DNA of 35,514 nt. It comes from Symploca sp. SIO2E6 (GTDB lineage Bacteria > Cyanobacteriota > Cyanobacteriia > Cyanobacteriales > Coleofasciculaceae). The notes beneath the pieces were generated by a model. The model was not told where the DNA came from. It did no database searches and saw only the letters and a list, made by a program, of their open reading frames with translations. Position numbers and translations under genes: made by a program. Of the stretch, positions 1,659 to 32,947 are shown one piece after another (the first letter of the stretch is position 1; every line of letters starts with the position of its first letter). The stretch covers positions 1 to 35,514 of the forward strand of contig JAAHGR010000002.1 of NCBI GenBank assembly GCA_010672425.1, written 5' to 3'.

Positions 1659-1866
1659 TTTACCTCTTAAAGTAAGTTGATGTTGCTGCTCAAAAAAGCA
1701 AACTCTTTAAGATTATAAGATTTAGATTTTGTCAAGTCAAAACTTATTAATTTTTAACTTTTTTTTAAGGTTATCTAAAGTATGGGAATTGGGAATTGGG
1801 AATAGTTCACCACAATGGGATGTAGCTCACTTTCTGCGAGAACTGCTATATTTTCCTAAAGTTGAA

Positions 1867-1931: not shown

Positions 1932-3011
1932 TTATTCTTCTGATGTTACAGCTGAATCTGGTGGAATGAGTTCTTCTACTGGTATTTCCTCCACTTCCTC
2001 AGGAATAACTACAGGTTCGGATAAGGGAACTTCCTCTTCTTCTAAGGTGATAGTTGTCTCTGGTGGAATCAGTTTTTCTACGGAGATGGTAGCTTCACTG
2101 GGGATAACTGAATCCTCCGATACTGGTGTTTCTCCCACTTCCTCAGGAATAACTACAGGTTCAGGTAAGGGAACTTCCTCTTCTTCTCGAGTGACAGCTG
2201 GCTCTGGTGGAATCAGTTCTTCTCCTGAGATGGTAGCGTCATCGGGGATAACTGACTCCTCCGATACTGGTATTTCCTCCACTTCCTCAGGAATAACTAC
2301 AGATTCGGTTAAGGGAACTTCCTCTTCTTCTCGAGTGACAACTGGCTCTGGTGGAATAAATTCTTCTACTGAGATGGTAGCTTCATTGAGGATAACTGAC
2401 TCCTCCGATACTGGTGTTTCTTCCACTTCCTCAGGAATAACTACAGGTTCAGGTAAGGGAACTTCCTCTTCTTCTCGAGTGACAGCTGGCTCTGGTGGAA
2501 TCAGTTCTTCTCCTGAGATGGTAGCTTCATCGGGGATAACTGAATCCTCCGATACTGGCATTTCCTCCACTTCCTCAGGAATAACTACAGATTCGGTTAA
2601 GGGAACTTCCTCTTCTTCTCGAGTGACAACTGGCTCTGGTGGAATAAATTCTTCTACTGAGATAGTAGATTCATCGGGGATAACTGAATCCTCCGATACT
2701 GGTGTTTCCTCCAATTCCTCAGGAATAACTACAGGTTCGGGTAAGGGAACTTCCTCTTCTTCTAAAGTGACAGCTGGCTCTGATGGAAGGAGTTCTTCTA
2801 CGGAGATGGTAGCTTCATCGGGGATAACCGAATCCTCCGATACTGGCATTTCCTCCAATTCCTCAGGAATAACTACAGGTTCGGGTAAGGGAACTTCCTC
2901 TTCTTCTAAAGTGACAGCTGGCTCTGGTGGAAGGAGTTCTTCTACGGAGATGGTAGCTTCATCGGAGACAACCGAATCCTCCGATACTGGTGTTTCCTCT
3001 ACTTCCTCAGG
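1932..3011. repeat. Coding tandem array, 144-bp units
   Basis: The C-terminal third of the lipoprotein consists of about six full and two partial 48-residue units with the core EEEEVPLPEPVVIPEE and the spacer PVSEDSVIPDEATIS. Units alternate between two sub-types (VEEFIPPEPVVTRE and GEELIPPEPAVTRE), which suggests that two-unit blocks were duplicated together. Confidence 0.85.
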
Positions 3012-4571
3012 AACAACAGGTGCCGCAGAGGGAATCTTACCCTTGACAAATTTTAGGAAGCGATCAAATAAACGACCAAATTTGGACTTTTCAGGTTCTA
3101 ATGCTGTGATTGCTTCCGATTCCTCTAGGAGTACTGGAGGTTCACCAAGAATTACTGATTCCTCTTCCTCCTCGGAAACAACCGATGTCTCTTCTAGTGG
3201 TTCAGGAGCAACAGCTGCTTCCTCTTCCTCCTCAGAAACAACCGATGTCTCTTCTAGTGGTTCAGGAACAACAGCTGCTTCCTCTTCCTCCTCAGAAACA
3301 ACCGATGTCTCCTCTAGTGGTTCAGGAACAACAGCTGGTTCCTCTTCCTCCTCGGAAACAACCGATGTCTCCTCTAGTGGTTCAGGAACAACAGCTGGTT
3401 CCTCTTCCTCCTCAGAAACAACCGATGTCTCCTCTAGTGGTTCAGCAGCAACAGCTGATTCCTCTTCCTCCTCGGAAACAACCGATGTCTCTTCTAGTGG
3501 TTCAGGAACAACAACTAATTCCTCTTCCTCCTCGGAAACAATAGCTGGCTCCTCTAGTGCTTCAGGAGCAACAACTGGTTCAAGGGAAGGTTCCTCAACT
3601 TCCTCTGGTTGTTCGGGTAAATCCGTGGGAGGTAACACTTCCACAGATGAAGGAATTGGTGAATTTAGTTCTACAAGGCTACGGGCGATCTCTAACTCCA
3701 GTTCACCGCGTACTAACTGAGAGAGGGTATCTTCGCCTTCAGGTTCGTAGCTAATCAACCGCACCGTGTCATTGAAAACATTTTTGACAGGGTTTCCTTG
3801 TTCATCTAGAAATTCCAAGTGCACCCAATTTTTGCCCGGTTTAAACCCTTGAAGATAAAAGGGTTGCCAGCTATCAAGAACAAAGCTTTTACCGTTTACT
3901 GTGACTCGAATTCGCCAATCAACAATCTCATCATCAGGATTTTCTGCCGCAACCAGGTGGAGTGGAGCGTTTGTTAGGTAGAAATCAAGCATAATCGGCT
4001 CGGCTCCGTAACTACCTTGAGGATGATTGTAAGTCAGTGTTGGTAAGGCTGGCTCAGGATTGTTATCAGTAGTCTTGGTAAAAAGGTGAAACGTAGTTTG
4101 GGCATAAGCACCTTCGTTTTTAAAACTCTCATGCCAAGGACGAGAAGCAAATACTCTGAGAGTGTGGGTTCCAGGGGATAAATCTTCAAAAACTAGAGGT
4201 TCGTCTAACTGATAAACTTCTCGAGCAATCTGGTTGTCTAGGAGCACATGTAAGTGGGGACCCAGACCCAAATCTGGATCTTGGAAAATTGGTAGGTCCT
4301 GAACCTGGAATTCCACCTTGACATTATTGTCTTGGAGAACTTCATCAGACTGAGGAGTGACAATTGCCACTTGAGGCTGGTAAGCTTCCAAACTTTGGTT
4401 CAGTTGTTGAATGACTGGGGGTGGTGCTACCTCCGAGAGTTGCTCTGTTCTCAGAGTAGGCAATGCCACCTCGTTACTCGGTGTTTCCGGTGTCTCAATG
4501 GGAGCTTCCCCACATCCTACTAGACCCCAAGCCAAAATTGCTGCCGCCAGCAAAGAAAAAATTACTCTCAC
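1932..4571 (-). CDS. Large lipoprotein with two arrays of acidic tandem repeats
   Basis: I choose the GTG at 4571 as the start. It has a strong GGAGG at 4578-4582, six bases upstream, and gives a textbook lipoprotein signal MRVIFSLLAAAILAWGLVGC with lipobox L17-V-G-C20. An ATG 54 bp further upstream would bury this signal behind a hydrophilic extension. The mature protein is about 860 residues. The first 290 or so form beta-rich segments resembling Ig-like or cell-surface domains (for example FEDLSPGTHTLRVFASRPWH). Then come about seven 20-residue units of the type EEPAVVPEPLEETSVVSEEE, a short basic linker (FGRLFDRFLKFVKGK), and about seven 48-residue acidic units. It is extremely rich in Glu, Pro and Val, so the tail should be extended and highly negative. 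The likely location is lipid-anchored in the cell envelope, facing the periplasm. The function is unknown; cation binding or a spacer role is only a guess. Confidence 0.75.
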   Translation of the reverse strand: MRVIFSLLAAAILAWGLVGCGEAPIETPETPSNEVALPTLRTEQLSEVAPPPVIQQLNQSLEAYQPQVAIVTPQSDEVLQDNNVKVEFQVQDLPIFQDPDLGLGPHLHVLLDNQIAREVYQLDEPLVFEDLSPGTHTLRVFASRPWHESFKNEGAYAQTTFHLFTKTTDNNPEPALPTLTYNHPQGSYGAEPIMLDFYLTNAPLHLVAAENPDDEIVDWRIRVTVNGKSFVLDSWQPFYLQGFKPGKNWVHLEFLDEQGNPVKNVFNDTVRLISYEPEGEDTLSQLVRGELELEIARSLVELNSPIPSSVEVLPPTDLPEQPEEVEEPSLEPVVAPEALEEPAIVSEEEEELVVVPEPLEETSVVSEEEEESAVAAEPLEETSVVSEEEEEPAVVPEPLEETSVVSEEEEEPAVVPEPLEETSVVSEEEEEAAVVPEPLEETSVVSEEEEEAAVAPEPLEETSVVSEEEEESVILGEPPVLLEESEAITALEPEKSKFGRLFDRFLKFVKGKIPSAAPVVPEEVEETPVSEDSVVSDEATISVEELLPPEPAVTLEEEEVPLPEPVVIPEELEEMPVSEDSVIPDEATISVEELLPSEPAVTLEEEEVPLPEPVVIPEELEETPVSEDSVIPDESTISVEEFIPPEPVVTREEEEVPLTESVVIPEEVEEMPVSEDSVIPDEATISGEELIPPEPAVTREEEEVPLPEPVVIPEEVEETPVSEESVILNEATISVEEFIPPEPVVTREEEEVPLTESVVIPEEVEEIPVSEESVIPDDATISGEELIPPEPAVTREEEEVPLPEPVVIPEEVGETPVSEDSVIPSEATISVEKLIPPETTITLEEEEVPLSEPVVIPEEVEEIPVEELIPPDSAVTSEE
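3161..3580. repeat. Coding tandem array, 60-bp units
   Basis: About seven 60-bp units run in exact register (clearest between 3181 and 3540), each encoding a 20-residue EPLEETSVVSEEEEE-type block. Neighbouring units differ by only a few bases, so this array is younger or more homogenised than the 144-bp array. Confidence 0.85.
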
Positions 4572-5017
4572 AGTTATCCTCCGGTGATTGTCGCCCAAAA
4601 CTCCACCTCCTGTTGCTACCGGCATTTTATCCTAACTGAAGCTGTTTATCGGAACTATATAGATAAGCAACATTTGAAGCATTAGAAAGATTGCCAATTA
4701 TGAGCATAGACTCTCATCTATATTGAATTTTGTAACATTTATTCGATTTACTATTGACTTTTTTTCCAGGAGTTTTCGCATTCCAAGCCAAGGCAAGACC
4801 TTGATTTGCTCAAATTTGAATTATTGTTAACTGTCACCTTAGACTGTCCAAGGCAAGACCTATCATCTACTAGAGAAGATATTCCCTTTAGTTATTCAAA
4901 CAAAATGGGTATATTCTTTCCCAAGGGAAGCATTTTCGTGGTACTTTCCTCCCTATAAAGTAAAGATTCAACTCCCCTTGGGTATTTCTCAATCCTTGTC
5001 TAGAGAGGAGATTCCTT
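4572..5017 (+). promoter_or_regulatory. Upstream region of psaA with direct repeats and a leader stem
   Basis: This non-coding region separates the divergent lipoprotein and psaA genes. A 14-bp direct repeat (ccaaggcaagacct) occurs at 4788-4801 and 4848-4861, exactly 60 bp apart. Closer to psaA, cccaaggg near 4920-4928 can pair with cccttggg near 4975-4983 to form an 8-bp stem with a loop of about 45 nt. GAGAGGAG at 5002-5009 is the psaA ribosome-binding site. I cannot assign the promoter hexamers with certainty. Roles in light regulation or mRNA stability are inference. Confidence 0.45.
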
Positions 5018-15842: not shown

Positions 15843-16565
15843 TCATTGTGGCTGTCCATTTTTGCTGTCACCAGAAGACTCAAATTTGTAACCAACGCCC
15901 CTAACTGTGTGAATTAATGAGGGTTCACTAGAATTAATTTCAATCTTCTTGCGAATTTGACCGATATGGACATCGACTACCCGTTGATCTCCTACATAGT
16001 CATATTCCCAAACTTCTTGGATTAACTCTGCTCGACGCAGTACCCTACCAGGATGGGAGGCTAGGTAATGCAGTAGATCAAATTCCAGAGCTGTTAAAGG
16101 TACACTCTCGTCGTGGAGGGTGACCTCCCGTCGCTCTGGATCTATGACTAGATTATCAAAGACAAGGCGCTTTGGTTCAGTCGGATTGACAACCCGTCGT
16201 CGTTTCAAAATTGCCCCGACTCGGTTTTCTAGTTCTTGTAAATCAAAGGGTTTGGTAAGGTAGTCGTCACCACCTTGCTCAAATCCCCGAACTTTGTCAA
16301 TCTGATCCCCTCGACTAGTGAGAAAGAGTACGAAGACATCAGTACGACTCTGCATTTCCCGACACAGGTTGTAGCCAATCGCGTCAGGTAGGTTTACATC
16401 CAGAATTACTAGATCTGGGTTGAATTGCTCAAAAATTGCTAAAGCTGTCTTGCCATCATGAGCAGACTCCATTTCATAGTTCTTCTGACTTAAAAAGCGC
16501 AGAATTAAATTGCGGATTGCCGGATCATCATCCACAACAAGAATTTTGGCAGCGGCTATGGTCAT
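15843..16565 (-). CDS. OmpR/PhoB-family response regulator
   Basis: A 240-residue two-domain transcription factor. The receiver domain (about 6-122) has the acidic pocket D12-D14, the phospho-acceptor D56 in LVILDVNLPD, T83 and K105 in LTKPF. The winged-helix DNA-binding domain (about 135-230) has LTALEFDLLHYLASHPGRVL and the recognition-helix region DQRVVDVHIGQIRKKI. I start at the ATG at 16565 (MTIAAAKILVVDDDPAIRN), which gives the usual family length. Upstream TTG or ATG codons would add a 26-residue leader not expected in this family. No sensor kinase lies next to it. The receiver sequence does not match RpaA or RpaB as I know them, so I give no symbol. Confidence 0.9.
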   Translation of the reverse strand: MTIAAAKILVVDDDPAIRNLILRFLSQKNYEMESAHDGKTALAIFEQFNPDLVILDVNLPDAIGYNLCREMQSRTDVFVLFLTSRGDQIDKVRGFEQGGDDYLTKPFDLQELENRVGAILKRRRVVNPTEPKRLVFDNLVIDPERREVTLHDESVPLTALEFDLLHYLASHPGRVLRRAELIQEVWEYDYVGDQRVVDVHIGQIRKKIEINSSEPSLIHTVRGVGYKFESSGDSKNGQPQ

Positions 16566-17273
16566 AACTTTCAACGGAGAACTTGATTTGTGATCAAGAT
16601 GCAGTATTTTTTGCACCATTGGTGTATTAAGCCTTTTAGACAATTATCGTAGTAGAATTAAGGGATGCCAATAGCTGTTGATATCATACCCAAGTCACCA
16701 TGGTTGAGCAATTTTCCCGAAACCTACCTGCTGTAAGCAGTTCAAAGGCTTAAAGTGAGTGCATCTTAACTATGGTAAATGCAGCTCACCTTACTTAGGT
16801 ATATATATTGACCTACCAGGCAAATCGATAGTATTCCGGAGCCTCTTCTAGATTGTTCGCAAAACACTAGATATTGTGGCACAACTGTAATACCAAGTAC
16901 CCATTGGTGATAAGTTAGGGAGCTAGGGGAGCTGGGGGAGCTGGGGGAGTTGGGGAAGAGGAATACAATTTTTCTGACCCCTTGGCTCTTTCCATATATA
17001 GGTTTTTTTTGCGTCCAAATTCTATATATGGGGGTTGACAAAATGCACGACCCTTTAACTTGTCACCATTCTCTAATACCTAACACCTAACCAGTATTCA
17101 GCAAAGCAGGCTAAACTAGTTTATAGGGGTTTGTGCAGAATCGTTGGCTCTTAACTTAAGTTCTATCACCGAAGAGGGAGTGCGTGGTTTAGCCTTACTG
17201 ATGTCTAACATATTAACTAATGTAGAGTCGCTGCCATCAGGCGTGACAAGAAGGGAGGTCTCGGAGGTTTTGA
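16566..17273. other. Divergent intergenic region, no gene seen
   Basis: About 700 bp between the response regulator (minus) and the CPP1-like gene (plus). It contains G-rich short repeats (AGCTGGGGG units, 16920-16960), an ATATATAGG/CTATATATGG pair near 16995-17030 and a TTGACA at about 17035 that could be a -35 element. A 91-codon minus-strand frame at 16766-17041 is built partly from these repeats, and I reject it. AAGGGAGG and GGAGG precede the CPP1-like start. Confidence 0.45.
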
Positions 17274-17876
17274 ATGAGTGATCAAAATCCCTACGAAAAA
17301 CTTGGGGTTACTGAAGATGCTTCTTTTGAAGAAATCCAGGATGCGAAAGGACGCCTAATGCAGCAGCATCAAGGCAACCAGAAGCTTGTGGAGACTGTGG
17401 AGGCTGCCTATGATGCGATTATTATGGATCGTCTCAGAATGCGCCAGGAAGGAAAAATCAAGGTTCCGGAGCGTATTCGTTTTCCAGAGAGATTGTCTCA
17501 AGCACCACCAAGTTTTCCTCAATCTCAAATCTCTCGGTCTCCTGCTTGGCTAGAGGGATTTTTAGATACCCCCTCAACTGGGGACATTCTTTGGCCTGCT
17601 GTGACCTTTTTGCTCTTGAGCCTGCTGAGTATTTCTAACAATCAAGATTCAACTGGGCCATTGGCTTTGGCGTTGGGTTTTGGCTGCAATATTTACTTTC
17701 TCAATCGTAAAGAACAAAAATTTGGTCGCTCTATACTACTGACCTTAGCCGGTTTACTCGTGGGGGTGGGACTAGGCAGTTTACTGGGGACGTATGTTGC
17801 TGGAAGTGAGCCCTTGACGTTTGCTACAGTTACGGCATTTGTTGTTTTCTGGTTGATTAGTAGCTTTCTACGTTGA
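17274..17876 (+). CDS. CPP1-like membrane protein (J-like domain)
   Basis: The 200-residue product begins MSDQNPYEKLGVTEDASFEE. This helix pattern resembles a DnaJ domain, but the HPD tripeptide is missing (about residues 1-70). A Pro-rich linker follows, and then three to four membrane helices from about residue 105 to the end. This is the architecture of the CPP1-like family (DUF3353). In plastids the family member CPP1 (chaperone-like protein of protochlorophyllide oxidoreductase) stabilises that enzyme; in cyanobacteria the role is less clear. The ATG at 17274 follows GGAGG with 6 bases between. A hairpin at 17893-17934 lies just past the stop. Confidence 0.85.
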   Translation: MSDQNPYEKLGVTEDASFEEIQDAKGRLMQQHQGNQKLVETVEAAYDAIIMDRLRMRQEGKIKVPERIRFPERLSQAPPSFPQSQISRSPAWLEGFLDTPSTGDILWPAVTFLLLSLLSISNNQDSTGPLALALGFGCNIYFLNRKEQKFGRSILLTLAGLLVGVGLGSLLGTYVAGSEPLTFATVTAFVVFWLISSFLR

Positions 17877-18107: not shown

Positions 18108-18198
18108 ATGACCAATGACCAATGACAAACAACAAATGACAAACAACAAATGACCAATGACAAACAACAAATGACAAACAACAAATGACCAATGACTA
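18108..18198 (+). repeat. Thirteen heptamers running into the polA start codon
   Basis: Thirteen consecutive 7-mers (mixtures of ATGACCA, ATGACAA and ACAACAA, the last one ATGACTA) run without interruption. The ATG of the twelfth unit (18185) is the polA start, and the thirteenth is inside the gene. No Shine-Dalgarno sequence is visible upstream, only the repeat. Confidence 0.9.
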
Positions 18199-21157
18199 TC
18201 TTCTCCTCGTTGACGGTCATTCCCTAGCATTTCGCTCTTACTTTGCCTTTGCTAAAGGCAGGGATGGGGGACTGCGCACAACTACGGGGATTCCCACTAG
18301 TGTCTGTTTTGGCTTTCTCAAATCCCTGCTAGAGGTGATGAGTTCCGAGCAACCCCAGTCGATGGCGGTGGCTTTTGATACCCAAGAACCGACATTTCGC
18401 CATGAGGTGGACGAAAATTACAAGGCAGGAAGGGATGAAACCCCGGAAGAATTTATCCCGGATTTACAAAATCTCCAGGAATTGCTGGCTGCTTTAAGAG
18501 TACCTGTAGTCACGGCTCCTGGCTATGAGGCGGATGATCTGTTGGCAACCCTAGCTTATCGTGCTAGTGATAGGGGTTATCAAGTCAAAATTTTAACAGG
18601 CGATCGCGATTTATTTCAGCTGGTTAACCCCGAAAAAGGGATTACAGTTTTGTATCTGAGTGGTGCTTTTTGGGGACGTAGTAGTACTACTGGACCAATC
18701 GAATTTCACTCCGAGGATGTGGTAGCAAAACTCGGCATTACCCCAGCACAGGTGGTAGATTATAAGGCCCTTTGTGGGGATAAATCGGATAATATTCCTG
18801 GGGTTAAGGGCATTGGGGAGAAGACGGCAGTTAAATTGCTCAAGGAATATAGTACTCTTGAGGCAATTTATGCTTCCCTGGATCAGATGAGGGATTCCGT
18901 TAGGAAGAAGTTAGAAACTGGTGCAGCGGCAGCTAAACATTCTCAGTACCTGGCTCAACTCAGATTTGATACTCCTGTGGAGATGGAGTTAGAAGACACG
19001 AAACTACAAGGGTTTGAGCTGGGAGTGATTCAACCCCTGTTAGAAAAGTTAGAGCTTAAGTCATTTTTGGTTAAAATTGACCAATTCCAGGAGCAGTTTG
19101 GTGGTATCGTTGTCGAGGAAGTTGCTCCTGAATCAGCAGAGGTAGTTTTACCAGATGCCGAAACTGAGGATTTGTGGTTCTTCAGTGCCGAGGATACCAC
19201 AGCCTATCAACAGCAACAACTAGCCAATAAACCTTTCCATGTCAGGATTATTGATACAGAAGCTAAGTTAATTGAGTTGGTGCAGCAGCTGCAAAACTGT
19301 ACTGACCCAAAATTTCCTGTAGCCTGGGATACGGAAACTAGTGCTTTGGAACCCAGGGATGCTCAGTTAGTTGGGATTGGTTGTTGTTTTCTTGAGCAGG
19401 GAATGGGGAATGGGGAATGGGGAATGGGGAATGGGGAACAGGGAACAGAGGTGCTTCTTAGGAACTCTTCAGATGTTACAGTTGCTTATTTTCCCATCGC
19501 TCATCGGCGAGGTGTTAATTTAGACCGAGATATCGTACTAGAAGCCTTGCGGCCAATTTTGGAGAGTAGTAATTATCCCAAAGCCTTGCAAAATACTAAG
19601 TTTGACCGCTTGGTATTCCGTTGTCAAGGAATTGAGTTAGCGGGAGTGGTCTTTGATACCATGCTAGCCAGTTATGTGCTCAATCCTGATGAGAGCCATA
19701 AACTCAGTGATTTATCCCTGAAATATTTGGGACTGACGGCGCAAAGTTATACGGATTTAGTCCCTAAGGGTAAAACTATTGGTGAGGTAGATATTCCCGC
19801 TGTAGCAGATTACTGCGGTATGGATGTTTACACGACATTCATGCTGGTAGCTAAATTGGGAGCAGAACTCCAAAACACTCCTCAATTGCAGCAGCTGTTG
19901 CTGGAGGTGGAACTATGCCTCGAAGCGGTGTTAGCTGAGATGGAATACCAAGGTATTCGTATTGATCAAGCATACCTCAAGGACTTTTCCCAACAACTAG
20001 AAACAGATTTACTCAACCTTGAGCAGCAAGCTTACCAAGATGCCGAGGAAGAGTTTAACCTGGGGTCTCCCAAACAGCTGAGTGAGTTGCTCTTTGTTAA
20101 ATTAGAGTTAGACCGTAAGAAATCTCGCAAAATCAAAACCGGTTACTCCACCGATGCCGCCACCCTGGAAAAGCTGCGAGGGGATCATCCGGTAGTGGAT
20201 CGGATTCTGGAATACCGGTCTCTGGCTAAATTGAAATCTACCTATGTCGATGCTTTACCTGCACTACTGCGTGCCGATAGCCAACGGGTACATACAGATT
20301 TTAACCAAGCGGTGACTACCACAGGACGTCTCTCTTCTTCTCACCCCAATTTACAGAATATTCCGATCCGCACTGCCTTTTCCCGGCAAATTCGCAAGGC
20401 TTTTATCCCAGAACCTGGTTGGTTATTAGTAGCGGCAGACTACTCCCAAATTGAATTACGCATCCTAGCCCACTTGAGTAAGGAACCAGTTTTGGTAGAA
20501 GCTTATCAGACTCAGGGAGATGTTCATACCCTCACAGCTCAAATGTTGTTTGAGAAGGAGGAAATCACCCCAGAAGAACGACGTTTGGGTAAGGTGATTA
20601 ATTTTGGTGTGATTTACGGCATGGGAGCCCAAAGATTTGCCCGGGAAGCCAAGATGCCAGCCTCCCAAGGGAAAATATTTATCGATCGCTTTAATGAGCG
20701 CTATCCCCAGATTTTTGCCTATTTAGAGCAGATGAAGCAACAAGCGATCGCCCAAGGTTATGTAGAAACTATTTTAGGACGCCGCCGCTATTTTAACTTC
20801 ACTAGTGAGAAACTGCGAAGAGAGCAAGGGAAAGATTTAGCAGAGATTGATCTAGGGAAATTCAAAGGAATAGGAGCCTACGATGCCGGTTTACTCAGAG
20901 CCGCTGCTAATTCTCCGATTCAGGGCTCTAGTGCAGATATTATCAAAGTGGCGATGGTGAAACTGCATCAAATATTACGGAATTACCAAGCGCGGTTGCT
21001 GTTGCAAGTACATGATGAATTAGTTTTTGAAGTTCCTCCAGAAGAGTGGGAGGAATTGCAGCCACAAATTCGGGAAGCGATGGAGTCAGCAGTGGAGTTA
21101 ACTGTACCGTTGGTAGTTGATGTTCATGCAGGGTTGAATTGGATGGAAGCGAAGTAG
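18185..21157 (+). CDS. polA: DNA polymerase I
   Basis: The 990-residue product carries all three Pol I domains. The 5'-3' nuclease spans about 1-290 (LLVDGHSLAFRSYFA, YEADDLLATLA, GDRDLFQLV and GDKSDNIPGVKGIGEKTA). The 3'-5' exonuclease spans about 370-590, with D382 and E384 in DTE and YCGMD later, so proofreading should be active. The polymerase spans about 600-990, with motif A DYSQIELRILAHL, motif B RRLGKVINFGVIYGMG and motif C VHDELVFE. It acts in Okazaki-fragment maturation and repair. Two oddities: the ATG at 18185 is part of a heptamer array with no visible SD, and residues 405-422 (QGMGNGEWGMGNGEQGTE) are encoded by a second heptamer repeat inside the exonuclease domain. The frame is intact. 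Confidence 0.98.
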   Translation: MTNDYLLLVDGHSLAFRSYFAFAKGRDGGLRTTTGIPTSVCFGFLKSLLEVMSSEQPQSMAVAFDTQEPTFRHEVDENYKAGRDETPEEFIPDLQNLQELLAALRVPVVTAPGYEADDLLATLAYRASDRGYQVKILTGDRDLFQLVNPEKGITVLYLSGAFWGRSSTTGPIEFHSEDVVAKLGITPAQVVDYKALCGDKSDNIPGVKGIGEKTAVKLLKEYSTLEAIYASLDQMRDSVRKKLETGAAAAKHSQYLAQLRFDTPVEMELEDTKLQGFELGVIQPLLEKLELKSFLVKIDQFQEQFGGIVVEEVAPESAEVVLPDAETEDLWFFSAEDTTAYQQQQLANKPFHVRIIDTEAKLIELVQQLQNCTDPKFPVAWDTETSALEPRDAQLVGIGCCFLEQGMGNGEWGMGNGEQGTEVLLRNSSDVTVAYFPIAHRRGVNLDRDIVLEALRPILESSNYPKALQNTKFDRLVFRCQGIELAGVVFDTMLASYVLNPDESHKLSDLSLKYLGLTAQSYTDLVPKGKTIGEVDIPAVADYCGMDVYTTFMLVAKLGAELQNTPQLQQLLLEVELCLEAVLAEMEYQGIRIDQAYLKDFSQQLETDLLNLEQQAYQDAEEEFNLGSPKQLSELLFVKLELDRKKSRKIKTGYSTDAATLEKLRGDHPVVDRILEYRSLAKLKSTYVDALPALLRADSQRVHTDFNQAVTTTGRLSSSHPNLQNIPIRTAFSRQIRKAFIPEPGWLLVAADYSQIELRILAHLSKEPVLVEAYQTQGDVHTLTAQMLFEKEEITPEERRLGKVINFGVIYGMGAQRFAREAKMPASQGKIFIDRFNERYPQIFAYLEQMKQQAIAQGYVETILGRRRYFNFTSEKLRREQGKDLAEIDLGKFKGIGAYDAGLLRAAANSPIQGSSADIIKVAMVKLHQILRNYQARLLLQVHDELVFEVPPEEWEELQPQIREAMESAVELTVPLVVDVHAGLNWMEAK
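19399..19447 (+). repeat. In-frame heptamer array inside polA
   Basis: Five GGGAATG units are followed by two GGGAACA units. They encode a Gly/Asn/Glu-rich loop between the strand LVGIGCCFLE and the later strand VTVAYFPIAH of the proofreading exonuclease domain. The unit length is 7, so gain or loss of a single copy would shift the frame; the present total leaves the gene open. Confidence 0.9.
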
Positions 21158-21191
21158 GTGTTGGTTGTTTGTTGTTTGTTGTTTGTTGTTG
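21158..21191. repeat. TTGTTTG-type heptamers after polA
   Basis: Four to five units of a TTGTTTG-like heptamer begin directly after the polA stop codon. This is the third heptamer array attached to this gene. Confidence 0.7.
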
Positions 21192-21195
21192 GGTG

Positions 21196-22904: not shown

Positions 22905-23034
22905 ACTGGCAAGATGCCAGTTCCACTTTTACTGGCAAGATGCTAGTTCCACTTTTACTGGCAAGATGCTAGTTCCACTTTTACTGGCAAGATGCTAGTT
23001 CCACTTTTACTGGCAAGATGCTAGTTCCACATTC
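22905..23034 (-). repeat. Five 26-bp hairpin-repeat units in front of the CHAT gene
   Basis: Five units of exactly 26 bp. Unit 1 carries the perfect hairpin ACTGGCA-AGA-TGCCAGT followed by TCCAC; units 2-5 share one change (TGCTAGT), which weakens the stem in the same way. The shared change shows that units 2-5 arose by amplification of a single mutated copy. The array ends 25 bp before the ATG of the large gene, so it lies in its promoter or leader. Confidence 0.85.
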
Positions 23035-23059: not shown

Positions 23060-26000
23060 ATGAAATCTGTTCTGCTGGCTTCTAACTGGTTATCTTTCTT
23101 GATGTCTTTGGTAGCAGCAATTCCTTTGGGAATCGCTTCACTAGCCCAAGCTCAACCGATTACTCCAGCAGCAGATGGTACTGGTACAATTGTTACTCCT
23201 AATGGCGATCGCTACGATATTCATGGGGGTAGTTTATCCGGAGATGGGGCAAATCTGTTTCATAGTTTGCAGCAATTTGGCTTAAATTCAGGACAAATAG
23301 CCAATTTTCTGTCCAATCCCCAAATTCAGAATATCCTGGGACGGGTGGTTGGGGGTGATCCTTCGATAATTCATGGCTTGATTCAGGTTACTGGTGGTAA
23401 CTCTAACCTCTACTTGATGAATCCGGCAGGGATAGTTTTTAGTGAGGGTGCTAGTTTAAATGTGCCAGCTAGTTTTACGGCAACTACTGCTAATGGTATT
23501 GGCTTTAGTAATGCTCAATGGTTCAATGCTGTTGGAGATAATAATTATCAGGATTTGCTGGGTAATCCTGGTAGTTTTGCTTTCACAATGAGTCAGCCGG
23601 GGAGTATTGTCAATGCTGGTGAGTTGGCGGTAGGAGTAGGACAGCAGTTAACTCTATTGGGTGGTACAGTTATCAATACTGGTACTATCTTGGCTCCAGA
23701 AGGAGAGATTACGATTACCGCAGTACCAGGGGAGAAGGTGGTACGTATCAGCCGGGAAGGAATGGTGCTGAGTTTAGAAGTTGAGCAGGCTTCACCCATA
23801 GCTGGGGGGATTGCTCCTGTCAGTTTACCGGCATTGCTGAGTGGGGGTAATTTGGAGGATGCTACAGGGGTAAGAGTTAACCCAGATGGTACGGTGAGTT
23901 TGACTGGTTCAGGGATTAGTTTGCCAGCAGAAGGGGGAATGGCGATTGCTTCTGGTAATCTGGAGGCTTCTGGTGATACTGGTGGCAGTGTTAATGTTTT
24001 CGGCAATAAAGTTGGTTTGATTGGTGGCAATATCGATGCTTCTGGTATCAATGGCGGCGGTAATGTGCTCATTGGTGGGGATTACCGAGGTGAGGGTACT
24101 GTACCGAATGCTCAGCGCACTTTTGTTAGTAGTGACTCGGTGATTAATGCGGATGCGCTGCTCAATGGTAATGGGGGTCGTGCGATTGTTTGGGCGGATG
24201 AGACCAACCGCTTCTATGGTAAGATTACAGCACAAGGTGGATTGGTTAGTGGTAATGGTGGCTTTGCTGAAGTTTCAGGTAAGGAGTTCCTGGATTTTGC
24301 TGGTACAGCTAACTTAGGAGCTACTCAAGGTCAGGTTGGTACTTTACTCTTAGATCCGGAAAATATCACGATTATTGACGGTGCTAATGTTCCAGCTGAG
24401 TTAGGAGAGAATGATGCATTTGCTGATCCAGGTGTCAATAATACGATTAACAATGGCACGATTAACGCTGCAACAGCCAATGTAATCCTGCAAGCTAACA
24501 ATGATATTACTTTTGAGGCTCCGATTAACATTGCGGCTTTGGGAGTGGGATTGACTGCCGAAGCCAATAACGACATTATTGTTAATGCTGATATTACCAC
24601 TCTTGAGGGTAACGTCTTCCTCAATGCTAACTCTGACGGTATGAATGGTGGTGCTATCAACCTTAATGAGAACATAACTATTAATACCAATGGTGGTAAT
24701 TTCACTGGCACTGGCACAGGAAATGACCCATTCATCAGCGGCATTACTCTCAATAATAACAGCACCATTAATGCTGCTGGTGGCAATATTAACCTTACTG
24801 GTACTGGTGTCGCAGGTGGTAATGAGGGTTATGGTATTGAGGTTGGTGGCAGTATAGAGACAACAGGGACAGGGACGATCAACCTCAATGGTACAGGCGG
24901 TGCTGGAAATAATAGCAATATAGGAATATTTATGAGTGCCACTGGCAGTATTAGTGCCAATGATGGCAATATCAGCTTAACTGGTACAAGTAATGGAACG
25001 GGAGAGGGTAATCATGGTATCTTTTTGAATCAAGGTGGTGCTGTAGAAACAACTGGAATAGGTGCGATTGACTTAATAGGCATTGCCAGTGATGGGAATG
25101 GTAATGTCAATAAAGGGATACTTATTACAAATACGAGTTCTATCTTCTCAGTGGATGGAAATATTAATCTCACGGGTATCGGTGGTGATGGAAATGGCAG
25201 AAATAGTGAAGGAATCACGGTTATTAACCAAGGTTCTATCTCCTCAGTGAATGGCGATATTAACCTGAATGGCACTGGAGGAACTGGAAGCAGTGGCTTC
25301 AGCCAAGGGATTGAAATCAATCGTGGAGGAGTGGTGGAAACTACGGGAAGCGGGAATATTACTATAGAAGGTAGTATTAATGCTAGTGGTGCATTCAACG
25401 TTGGCATATTTATTGGCAACCAAGACACTCGTGTTTCTTCAGTAGATGGCAATATTAGCCTGAAGGGAACTAGTAACGGTACTCAAGATACTGAATACGG
25501 CATTGTATTGATCGATAATGGTGTGGTGGAATCAACGGGGAGTGGAACCATTACCTTGGAAGGTTCATCTGCAAGTACAGACGGTATTCGCGTGCAGAAT
25601 ACTGCAATTAACCCGACAGGAATTGGTAGTGGTACAGTCACTCTCACCTCGATGCAAGACATTACTGCGGGCAATATTACTACCCAAGGGGAGTTAATCG
25701 TTAATACCGATAGCATCTACACCCTAGATAATCCGGTAACTGCCAACGGTGGAGTTACCATCACCGCTGCTGATGTGCAACTCAATGCCTTGCTGGATGC
25801 AGGTAATAGTAATGTCACCTTCCAACCTTCAGATCCTACCTTTACTATCGGTATCGGAGATGGTAGTAACAGTAATTTCAACTTGGATACCACTGAATTG
25901 ACAACTAATCTCAACTCCGCTGGCACTGTAACGATTGGCAGTCCTGGATTTACTGGTACTGGAGAGGTACAACTAAGAAACTTAGATCTGAGTGGAGAGG

Positions 26001-28846
26001 ACTACAATTTTACAGTTAGAGGTGGCAGAATTTTATTCGTAAGCAGTAGTAATCCCATTGTCAAACTTGCCGATAATAAAACCGCTCAATTCATTTCTAC
26101 GGACAGTATTATTGAAGGTGCTAATATTGACATAGAAATTGGTGGTTTAAATGGAGCAGTTTTGTTCGATGCTGCTAATAATATCGGTGTTCCAGTAGAT
26201 CCAACCTTTGGTGGTTTAGATGTTAGGGTAAGGAATATAGCTGCTCGCACTCGGAATTCTGATGGGCTCATACTGGACTTGTCTAATGATGCTGTGATTA
26301 CTTCTGTCGGTGGAGTTGATGGAGTTAGCACTGCCAATAATGGCAGTATTTCCCTGAGAGGTAATAGTAGCTTAACGCTGAATCAACCTGTGGTAGCGGC
26401 TGGTTCAGGAGAAATTCTCATCGGTGGAACACAGACAAATGTTATCAATCTCAATAGTACGTTAACTACAGAAACTGGTAATCTGACTTTTGAGAATCCA
26501 GTCGTTCTGGGTGCAGGTATTGGCTCATTGACGACTAGCGGCGGTAACATCACCTTTAATAGCACCGTTGATGGTAACCAACTACTCAACCTCAACGCTG
26601 GCAGTGGTTTAATTCAGTTTAATGACAACATTGGGGCAATCACTCCTCTAACTGGTCTTAGCTTAACAGGAGGCGGTATCACTTTAAACGCTTCTGTGAC
26701 TACTGCTGGTGATGTCACTATTATCACCAACGATAACCTCACCACTGGGGATATCACTACTGGTGGAGGCGATATTACCCTGGAAAGCCAAATTGGAACC
26801 ATTACTACTGGCAACCTCAACTCCTCAGCAGCAACTGGAGGTGATATCTTCCTCAATGCTCTCTTGAGTATTACTAGTCAGGAAATCAACTCCAGTGGTA
26901 CGATTAATAATGGTGGTAATGTTACTCTTGACCCCATCGGTGATATTCAAGTGAGCTTAATTAACGCTCAAGGTGGTAATAATGGTATCGGTGGTACAGT
27001 AGATATTACCGCTGGTCAATTTTTCCGAGCCACAGACAGTTTTAGCAATCGCAACGGACTTCTTACCAGTATCTCCACTGCCGGAGGATTAGGTGGTGGA
27101 GATATTACTATCCGACATGGTGGAAACGGAGTAACTCCCTTTGATGTAGGAGATGCTACCACCAACGGTACAGCAGCAGCCATCAGCAGTGGGGATTTTA
27201 CTATTGCTTCCCAACAGTCTTTCCCCTTCACTCATACAGAGGGTAACATACATATTATTAGTATTGATGCACCTACCAATCCTACCAATCCCATTATTCC
27301 TCCTACCAATCCCACTATTCCTCCTACCAATCCCACTATTCCCCCCATCAATCCTCTTGATCTGATCAAGCCATACCAACTCTCTCTACCTCCAGTTTCT
27401 GAAAAAATATTTCCGGTAGCACTCTCTATTGCGACAGACGAAGGAGTGGAGACTACTATAGCAGCACTCGAAAGCAGCTTCACCACTCAATTTGAAAACC
27501 ATCTAGGCATCAGCAGCAATGATAACTCTTCCACTGCTACTCTAGAAGAAGCCCGTGATAGACTAGAAGAACTAGAAGAAGTCCGCAAAAGACTGCAAGA
27601 AATAGAAGAAGCCACTGGTTCTAAACCAGCTGTCATTTATGTCTTCTTTGTCCCCACCACTACTTCCTTACAAACTTCCCCCTCAGGGGATGAGGGAAAA
27701 AAGGAGTCAGCAGACACGGAGACACGGGACGCACCGGACGCGGGGAATGAAAATCCCACTTCATATTTCGTTCAACCCCCCTCTGGCAACAAATCTCTGC
27801 CAACAGACAAACCCCAACAACCGGAAACTATTTGGCACTTCGGTTCCCAAGGCTTATCCTCCAGCGAAGAATCACCATCTTCCCTCAGACTACAACCCCA
27901 ACCTACTGATGAGTTAGAACTAATACTAGTTACTGCCAAAGGTAAACCCATTCGACACCGAGTACGAGGAGCCAACCGGGAACAAGTCTTCAAAACCGTC
28001 AAATCCTTCCGCCGTGCTGTCACCGATATCCGTGTCTCTCGTCCCTATAAAGAAAAAGCACAACAACTCTATCAGTGGCTAATTGCACCCTTAGAAGCCG
28101 ACTTAAAAGCTCAAGAGATTAATAGTCTTGTCTTCATCCTCGATACTGGTTTGCGTTCCTTACCAATTTCGGCTCTCCATGATGGTAATGGCTTTATTGT
28201 CGAAAAATACAGCATTGGTTTAATGCCTAGCTTATACCTAACTGATACTCGTTACGTAGATGTCAGGAATACCCAAATGCTAGCCATGGGAGCAGCAGAA
28301 TTTACAGCAGAAGACCAAAATCCCTTACCCGCAGTACCAACAGAATTATCTACTCTAACCGGTCAAATATGGCAAGGTACATCCTTCCTCAACGAAGAAT
28401 TTACCTTCAACAAACTCCAATCCGCTCGTGATACCCAACCTTTTGGTATTGTACACCTAGCCACCCACGGGGAATTTCTTCCAGGTAAGCTGAGTAATTC
28501 CTATATCCAACTATGGGATAAGAAACTACAACTGGATCAAGTACGGGAGTTAGGATTTCATAATCCTCCAGTAGAACTATTAGTATTAAGTGCCTGTCGC
28601 ACCGCCTTAGGAGATACCGAAGCGGAGTTAGGATTTGCGGGATTAGCGGTACTAGCAGGAGTCAAATCAGCGATCGGTAGTTTGTGGTATGTTAGTGATG
28701 AAGGAACCTTAGGCTTTATGAGTAATTTATACCAACAATTGCAGGAATCCCCCTTCAAAGCCGAAGCCTTGCGCCAAACTCAATTAGCCATGTTGCGAGG
28801 TGAAGTGCGACTAGAAAATGGCCAACTAGTAAGTAGCGATACTTAA
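23060..28846 (+). CDS. Exported haemagglutination-domain protein with C-terminal CHAT protease domain
   Basis: A 1928-residue protein. Residues 1-31 are a signal peptide ending SLAQA. A two-partner-secretion (haemagglutination activity) domain follows to about 300, with [21 protein letters not shown] long beta-helix of INLTGTG-type repeats runs to about 1400. Then come a Pro-rich hinge near 1405-1435 (repeated NPTIPPT), a coiled coil ([20 protein letters not shown]) and a CHAT domain from about 1620. The caspase-like dyad is present: H1803 in HLATHGEF and C1846 in [10 protein letters not shown]. It should be exported through an outer-membrane TpsB pore and act as a cell-surface or secreted protease; no tpsB lies in the window. 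The start has AAAGGA six bases upstream. The CHAT domain stops early ([13 protein letters not shown]) and lacks the usual terminal HPYYWAxFxxIG-type segment, so activity is uncertain. Confidence 0.92.
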
Positions 28847-32339: not shown

Positions 32340-32416
32340 ACTCATTACTCATTACTCATTACTCATTACTCATTACTCATTACTCATTACTCATTACTCA
32401 TTACTCATTACTCATT
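32340..32416. repeat. Eleven perfect ACTCATT heptamers
   Basis: Eleven uninterrupted identical ACTCATT units, followed by ACT. They lie 31 bp before the start of the unknown gene at 32448. Perfect identity implies recent expansion. A few related units occur near 498-517. Confidence 0.95.
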
Positions 32417-32447
32417 ACTTCGTACCTCCTCTTGATATAGAAATTTT

Positions 32448-32909
32448 ATGCTCAGTAAATGTTTCCTGGAGACTGATGGATATCAAGTTATCTTTGAACT
32501 CACCAGTATGGAGAATAGTCAAGAACTGGTGAATTTAATCATTGAGTTGAGGCTGGACTCTGAGCTAGGAGCAATGTTAGTGCAGTCTATTCCTTCAACG
32601 ATCGCACTCCAAAATTTACAAGAATTGGTCAGTTACTTTGAGAAACATGTTTTTGCTTTACAAACAGACTCCAATCATGAATCCCCGGTTTTCCTAACCA
32701 AGAGTTTGGGTTTTCAGATGCAAGCCTTGGCAGGAGAATTTTATTCAGAAGCTGAAGGTAATTGTAATATTCGAGTTATGCTCAATGTAGGTAAATGTAC
32801 TCAAGAGTATCCTAGTACTTATATTGGTGGGGAATCAGTAGTTGAGTTTGCTAAGATTCATAATTTTACCTCAGGGATTCAGATGGCATTGAAGGAATTT
32901 GCTAAGTAG
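32448..32909 (+). CDS. Unknown protein, 153 residues
   Basis: I do not recognise this protein. It begins MLSKCFLETDGYQVIFELTS, has a helical middle (ENSQELVNLIIELRLDSELG) and a C-terminal part with NIRVMLNVGKCTQEYPSTYI. It is soluble with no signal or membrane segment and three Cys. The ATG at 32448 lacks a clear SD, and a second ATG 20 codons in (MENSQELV) is possible. It is bounded by a perfect heptamer array upstream and by GGGAATT heptamers directly after the stop. Its composition and lack of stops support a real gene, but the function is open. Confidence 0.6.
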   Translation: MLSKCFLETDGYQVIFELTSMENSQELVNLIIELRLDSELGAMLVQSIPSTIALQNLQELVSYFEKHVFALQTDSNHESPVFLTKSLGFQMQALAGEFYSEAEGNCNIRVMLNVGKCTQEYPSTYIGGESVVEFAKIHNFTSGIQMALKEFAK

Positions 32910-32947
32910 GGAATTGGGAATTGGGAATTGGGAAGGAGCAACGAACT

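Follow-up and report, generated by a model that had tools for sequence, protein, structure and literature searches.

A heptamer array in the proofreading domain of DNA polymerase I of Symploca sp. SIO2E6, and other repeats at the same loop in related species

How can a tandem repeat with a unit of seven bases lie within the coding sequence of a core enzyme, and does it have a role there? This question is raised by polA in the window analysed here, a 35,514-nucleotide stretch (contig C550; GenBank JAAHGR010000002.1) of the 8.96-Mb draft genome of Symploca sp. SIO2E6 (G000; 1437 contigs). The relatives were compared on the base of one genome per species. The reading that we prefer, with a probability of roughly 80%, is that a permissive surface loop of PolA was neutrally colonised by a stop-free heptamer repeat that is found throughout the genome.

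The array in polA and the enzyme that carries it

The array consists of five perfect GGGAATG units (19399-19433) followed by two GGGAACA units (19434-19447). An earlier note, made from the sequence of the window, had described these units as lying in frame within polA, and the sequence and the translation agree with it. The note had also assigned the array to residues 405-422; the start at 405 was correct, but the array, which starts at the third base of codon 405, ends with codon 421; it encodes the peptide (Q)GMGNGEWGMGNGEQGT. When the window sequence was shuffled 20 times, no perfect heptamer in four copies was found in the shuffles. In addition, a composite GGGAATG(GGGAACA)2 occurs once more elsewhere in the genome, which does not by itself identify a donor.

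Table 1. Positions of polA, its domain and loop, and the repeats discussed in the text (positions of the window)
Feature	Position	Strand	Evidence
polA, encoding DNA polymerase I (990 aa) with the three domains 5'-nuclease, 3'-5' exonuclease and polymerase	18185-21157	+	
3'-5' exonuclease (proofreading) domain, residues 354-562	19244-19870	+	Pfam PF01612; alignments with Klenow and relatives
Hairpin loop, hypervariable and predicted to be disordered, about residues 404-430; hot spot of insertions in the family	19394-19474	+	
In-frame heptamer array (GGGAATG)5(GGGAACA)2	19399-19447	+	
G-quadruplex motif, five GGGG runs with AAT between them, coding strand	19405-19438	+	G4Hunter-type score 2.56, window maximum
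Upstream heptamer array ACAAATG/ACAAACA/ACCAATG, contains the polA start codon	18104-18196	+	
Downstream heptamer array TGTTTGT (complementary to ACAAACA), just 3' of the polA stop	21159-21190	+	
Intergenic GGGAATT array, 3 units	1784-1804	+	
GGGAATT array, 3.7 units, starts at the last stop-codon base of ORF 32448-32909	32909-32934	+	

Alignments with Klenow and with relatives showed that the four metal ligands of the E. coli enzyme (D355, E357, D424, and D501) have their counterparts in D382, E384, D474, and D547. In the Klenow alignment, the loop has 31 residues versus 5 in E. coli, and the strands on its two sides carry DTET...LVG and AY(I/F)P(V/I)AH. Furthermore, a structure model was built from 13 sequences of the family and the order (mean pLDDT 80). 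Klenow was the best structural match of the modelled exonuclease segment, and pLDDT fell below 50 at segment residues 76-95 (PolA 407-426), between two confident strands. The Klenow alignment and the model thus confirm that the array lies between two beta strands of the exonuclease fold. Since all four exonuclease residues are kept, the PolA with the array is probably functional and has probably retained proofreading, as judged from its sequence. The array peptide itself probably has no function.

The effect of copy number was computed on the sequence. The gain or loss of one or two units leads to a stop after 420-450 residues, and a change of three units preserves the frame, as had been claimed; any change that is no multiple of three units therefore switches the frame and truncates PolA, a feature shared with phase-variation loci. 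It had further been claimed that a frameshift inactivates polymerase activity. This is borne out, because a product truncated at 420-450 residues would lose the polymerase domain. However, to say that PolA is inactivated would be too strong, because the truncated product would keep the 5'-nuclease domain.

Besides the internal array, the earlier note had reported that polA is touched by three heptamer arrays, one of them after the stop, and all three were confirmed at the positions given in Table 1. The polA start codon (18185) lies inside the upstream array, and both congeners have an array-free 5' end of polA and a longer N-terminus. Thus, in this species the native start appears to have given way to the upstream array. 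The array forms a ladder of overlapping minicistrons of 5 and 12 codons (MTNNK and MTNDKQQMTNNK), two of which end in TGA at 18186-18188 and overlap the polA ATG. The downstream TGTTTGT array is absent in both congeners. Meanwhile, a sequence related to a 26-bp repeat found at 22905-23030 lies near 21195, after polA.

The loop in relatives and the heptamer in other genes

The standard short loop is present at this site in most genomes of the order, in all four genomes of the genus Moorena, and in many other members of the family. In an alignment of 28 PolA sequences, insertions concentrate at the loop, where 10 sequences carry them (up to 94 residues); the linker that joins the nuclease domain to the exonuclease domain comes second. 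The sister species (G001; SH-aLRT 87 for the pairing in a quick PolA tree from one protein) has a loop of about 100 residues that is coded by GGCAGAA-type heptamers. The third congener (G002) has a loop of about 20 residues with neither GGGAATG nor GGCAGAA repeats, and it differs from the loop of G000 by 14 residues, that is, 42 bases or six units. In G000 and G001 the repeats start right after the same codons (GAGCAG and AAGCAG, sharing ..AGCAG), and a native loop like that of G002 is still visible 3' of the G001 insert.

Outside this genus, genus g6 (G007) carries an insert of ~90 residues at the same loop, the whole loop being about 100 residues. This insert consists of dispersed repeats, for which the G007 genome has tens of further partial matches. 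In addition, loops of 20-35 residues were found in six genomes (G015, G013, G006, G009, G003, and G014). Among the matches listed, the members of the order outside the family with an unbroken match had an exonuclease segment at most 10 codons longer than the query and no comparable insert. A scan of the genome contigs gave many low-complexity matches to the repeat peptide.

The array is absent from every relative examined, which supports the claim of a recent in-frame insertion. If the array peptide had been kept in relatives with other codons, this would have spoken against such an origin; the loops of the relatives are entirely different. An alignment of polA had been proposed as a check of uniqueness, and its outcome is divided: the array is indeed found only in this species, but the site is refilled by other repeats elsewhere. 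The idea of a singular event finds no support, since different repeats occupy this loop elsewhere in the family and GGGAATG arrays also lie in frame in several further housekeeping genes. Because the same spot is filled with other repeats in the relatives, we consider it a disposable loop that is repeatedly overwritten by repeat DNA and not a lone oddity.

Why heptamers can enter genes follows partly from arithmetic. Seven and three have no common factor, so an array of heptamers gives one cyclic peptide of seven residues, identical in all three frames, or else a stop in each of them. By computation, 69% of oriented heptamers are stop-free, and GGGAATG, GGGAATT, GGGAACA, GGCAGAA, ACAAACA, and ACAACCA are stop-free on both strands; in contrast, ACAAATG, which occurs in the upstream polA array, contains a stop when the forward strand is read. 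As GGGAATG is stop-free on both strands, its insertion requires only a net length divisible by three. MacGregor made an equivalent point about TAACTGA heptamers (PMC4679880).

In the G000 genome, (GGGAATG)3 has 83 forward and 83 reverse matches, overlapping ones included. Among the matches listed, 48 arrays of (GGGAATG)3+ were chosen without regard to gene content. Eight of the 48 lie in frame in long ORFs, seven of them well inside and one near the start (an rsmD-like ORF, C684), and the other 40 are not embedded in a long ORF. The repeat had been held to be otherwise intergenic; this does not stand for the genome as a whole, in which 7/48 sampled arrays are interior to long ORFs. These seven lie in the genes for PolA, Mfd, PEP synthase, and apolipoprotein N-acyltransferase (lnt), in an NRPS ORF (Pfam), in an ORF whose sequence identifies it as a polyketide synthase, and in one that resembles a membrane protein and matches no Pfam family. 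Pfam domains are present in most host ORFs. CobN-like, histidine kinase, and transporter ORFs were also identified with arrays. We had considered that the insert might be restricted to polA or to repair genes, and we rejected this because metabolic and secondary-metabolite genes are also hosts. One ORF of 1530 aa, CobN/magnesium chelatase (L247:1601-6190), holds several arrays of different heptamer families inside a single Pfam domain.

Two of these genes repeat the pattern of polA: one linker with different repeats in different species. In the mfd linker (at residue 120), G000 has GGGAATG, GGGAATT, and ACAACAA arrays, G001 has a palindromic repeat and ACAACCA units, and G002 has GGGAATG and other units. 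In PEP synthase, CATTCCC units occupy the linker of G000 and AATTCCC units that of G002; G001 has degenerate sequence there, and G009, G011, and G005 have other repeats. Furthermore, Mfd of G000 carries a second in-frame repeat insert at about residue 380 (L249, C645), which codes for RGDAGTRGRGDAGTRGRGDAG.

Explanations of the array

Under neutral colonisation, an array would begin where the native sequence partly matches a unit, through microhomology or as a slippage seed, and would lengthen and shorten by slippage or copying. Within genes, arrays would persist only if frame and fold were preserved. Copy changes out of frame would give a PolA of 420-450 residues, a 5'-nuclease without polymerase, and would presumably be purged. 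The host loop, a variable tip of a hairpin that includes none of the four catalytic motifs, would be permissive. As to the seeding step, the PEP synthase array runs into the conserved native (F/Y)PIA codons (Phe/Tyr-Pro-Ile-Ala), and the DNA of these codons in array-free relatives, e.g. TTTCCCCATTGC, already corresponds to a repeat unit; this junction fits arrays that were seeded by short matches in native sequence. At the polA junction only 4-5 bases match, which could be chance, so seeding at polA is a lead only. The seed argument leans mainly on this one other gene, PEP synthase.

The array could instead act through its nucleic acid. A G-quadruplex in the mRNA or DNA might slow translation or transcription and so tune the amount of PolA. 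The five runs of four G with three-base loops lie on the coding strand and have the highest score of the window, and closely related heptamers fold into G-quadruplexes in vitro and are reported to be under-represented on the coding strand in ORFs (Rehm et al., PMC4692102). It is thus possible, from the motif, that the array alters polA expression. However, the loop of G001 consists of purine-rich GGCAGAA repeats without such G tracts, and G002 has no array. In addition, the coding strand is G-rich in only two (polA and mfd) of the seven interior cases in the sample and C-rich in five. As an account of the array, tuning of PolA amount is therefore improbable.

A contingency locus, in which heptamer slippage would toggle PolA between full-length and truncated forms and so give reversible mutator or repair-deficient cells, appears somewhat less probable again. 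It would agree with a unit that is not a multiple of three, with the truncation after one- or two-unit changes, and with the same array in mfd, also a repair gene; every GGGAATG unit contains ATG, hence a downstream restart is conceivable. However, repair genes are not singled out, given that the other hosts are unrelated metabolic and secondary-metabolite genes. Only five units are perfect, and the same loop in another genus (G007) is filled by dispersed, non-tandem repeats. Rehm et al. judged phase variation unlikely for repeats of this type, as hosts belong to all functional classes (PMC4692102). A regulatory or phase-variation role of the polA array is possible but unsupported. The bolder form, a selected slippage switch made of the array and the ATG ladder at the start codon that yields PolA-truncated, repair-altered cells at a set rate, seems very doubtful; if true, it would make the mutation rate or the repeat content of the lineage self-adjusting. 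A single array of such kind should not be taken for a designed switch.

It is even harder to believe that selection maintains the loop as a functional extension (a partner-binding peptide, for example) and that its coding by repeats is incidental. Loops longer than standard do occur in several genera of the family, but loop sequences differ widely between genera, the repeat-coded parts are unrelated within the genus, and many members of the family, all four Moorena genomes among them, have the short standard loop. Finally, an assembly artefact (a wrong copy number or a mis-join) might be suspected in a repeat-rich draft of 1437 contigs, but it is hardly credible because 49 bp is less than an ordinary read, the 990-aa frame is unbroken through the array, both flanks align with the congeners, and analogous inserts arise independently in other assemblies.

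Known repeat systems and other repeats in the window

The STRR heptanucleotides of Calothrix and other cyanobacteria are known mainly as intergenic or RNA-gene repeats. The repeat described here resembles them in its tandem 7-base units, its many copies, and its occurrence in a filamentous cyanobacterium. It also shares its G-rich make-up and its dispersal with the heptamers GGGAATC and GGGGA(C/T)T of Xanthomonas and Nostoc PCC 7120, as presented by Rehm et al. 2015 (PMC4692102). Like these, the polA array has tandem 7-base units with G runs of at least three, and GGGAATG has many dispersed copies that are mostly intergenic (40/48 sampled arrays not embedded in a long ORF). However, the unit here is GGGAATG or GGGAATT and not the consensus of those heptamers, although GGGAATG, which is GGGGAAT in another register, is related. 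Rehm et al. give 68% of such repeats in Nostoc PCC 7120 as intergenic and about a third therefore as intragenic (PMC4692102), so heptamers in genes are not new; the parts of their paper considered do not treat polA inserts or the refilling of one site by different repeats across species.

The TAACTGA heptamers (MacGregor 2015, PMC4679880) are likewise found in some ORFs, in the stop-free orientation only. They have another unit, and within ORFs they lie mostly at protein ends or in hypothetical proteins, in contrast to the core enzyme domain here. Rickettsia palindromic elements are in-frame repeats in unrelated housekeeping genes whose function is apparently retained (PMC10969869, PMC6649704), and the heptamers here likewise lie in frame in unrelated genes. 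However, the Rickettsia elements are ~150-bp palindromes with a conserved coded peptide, whereas the polA insert is a 49-bp tandem heptamer without a palindrome, and tandem heptamers share the same sites here with other repeats of several classes. In the open-licence literature searched, no paper was found that dealt with repeats of Moorena or with heptamers inserted in cyanobacterial polA, and there was no published account of the refilling of polA, mfd, and PEP synthase loops by different repeat classes.

Cyanobacterial heptamers are usually described as mainly intergenic, and here the same few linkers in PolA, Mfd, and PEP synthase, all of them core enzymes, are refilled by different classes of repeat in sister species. 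The refilled linkers would be a natural map of insertion tolerance and, with repeats of several classes, a bacterial counterpart of the coding palindromes of Rickettsia. The system also lets one ask how arrays start (from seed matches) and how core genes tolerate frame-breaking repeats.

The window contains further repeats. The heptamer ACTCATT is present in 11.4 perfect copies at 32340-32419, just upstream of ORF 32448-32909. This ORF is thus bracketed by heptamers, ACTCATT before and GGGAATT after it, and is another such gene besides polA. At 1977-3581, tandem repeats of 144 bp (7.2 copies) and 60 bp (7.1 copies) lie inside the minus-strand ORF 1932-4625 and also keep a 584-aa frame open on the opposite strand. 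Between ORFs 15843-16643 and 17274-17876, there is a nine-base tandem repeat GGGAGCTGG with a G-quadruplex motif (16918-16958). Meanwhile, the 26-bp repeat at 22905-23030 (ACTGGCAAGATGCTAGTTCCACTTTT, 4.8 copies) lies just upstream of a 1928-aa ORF (23060-28846).
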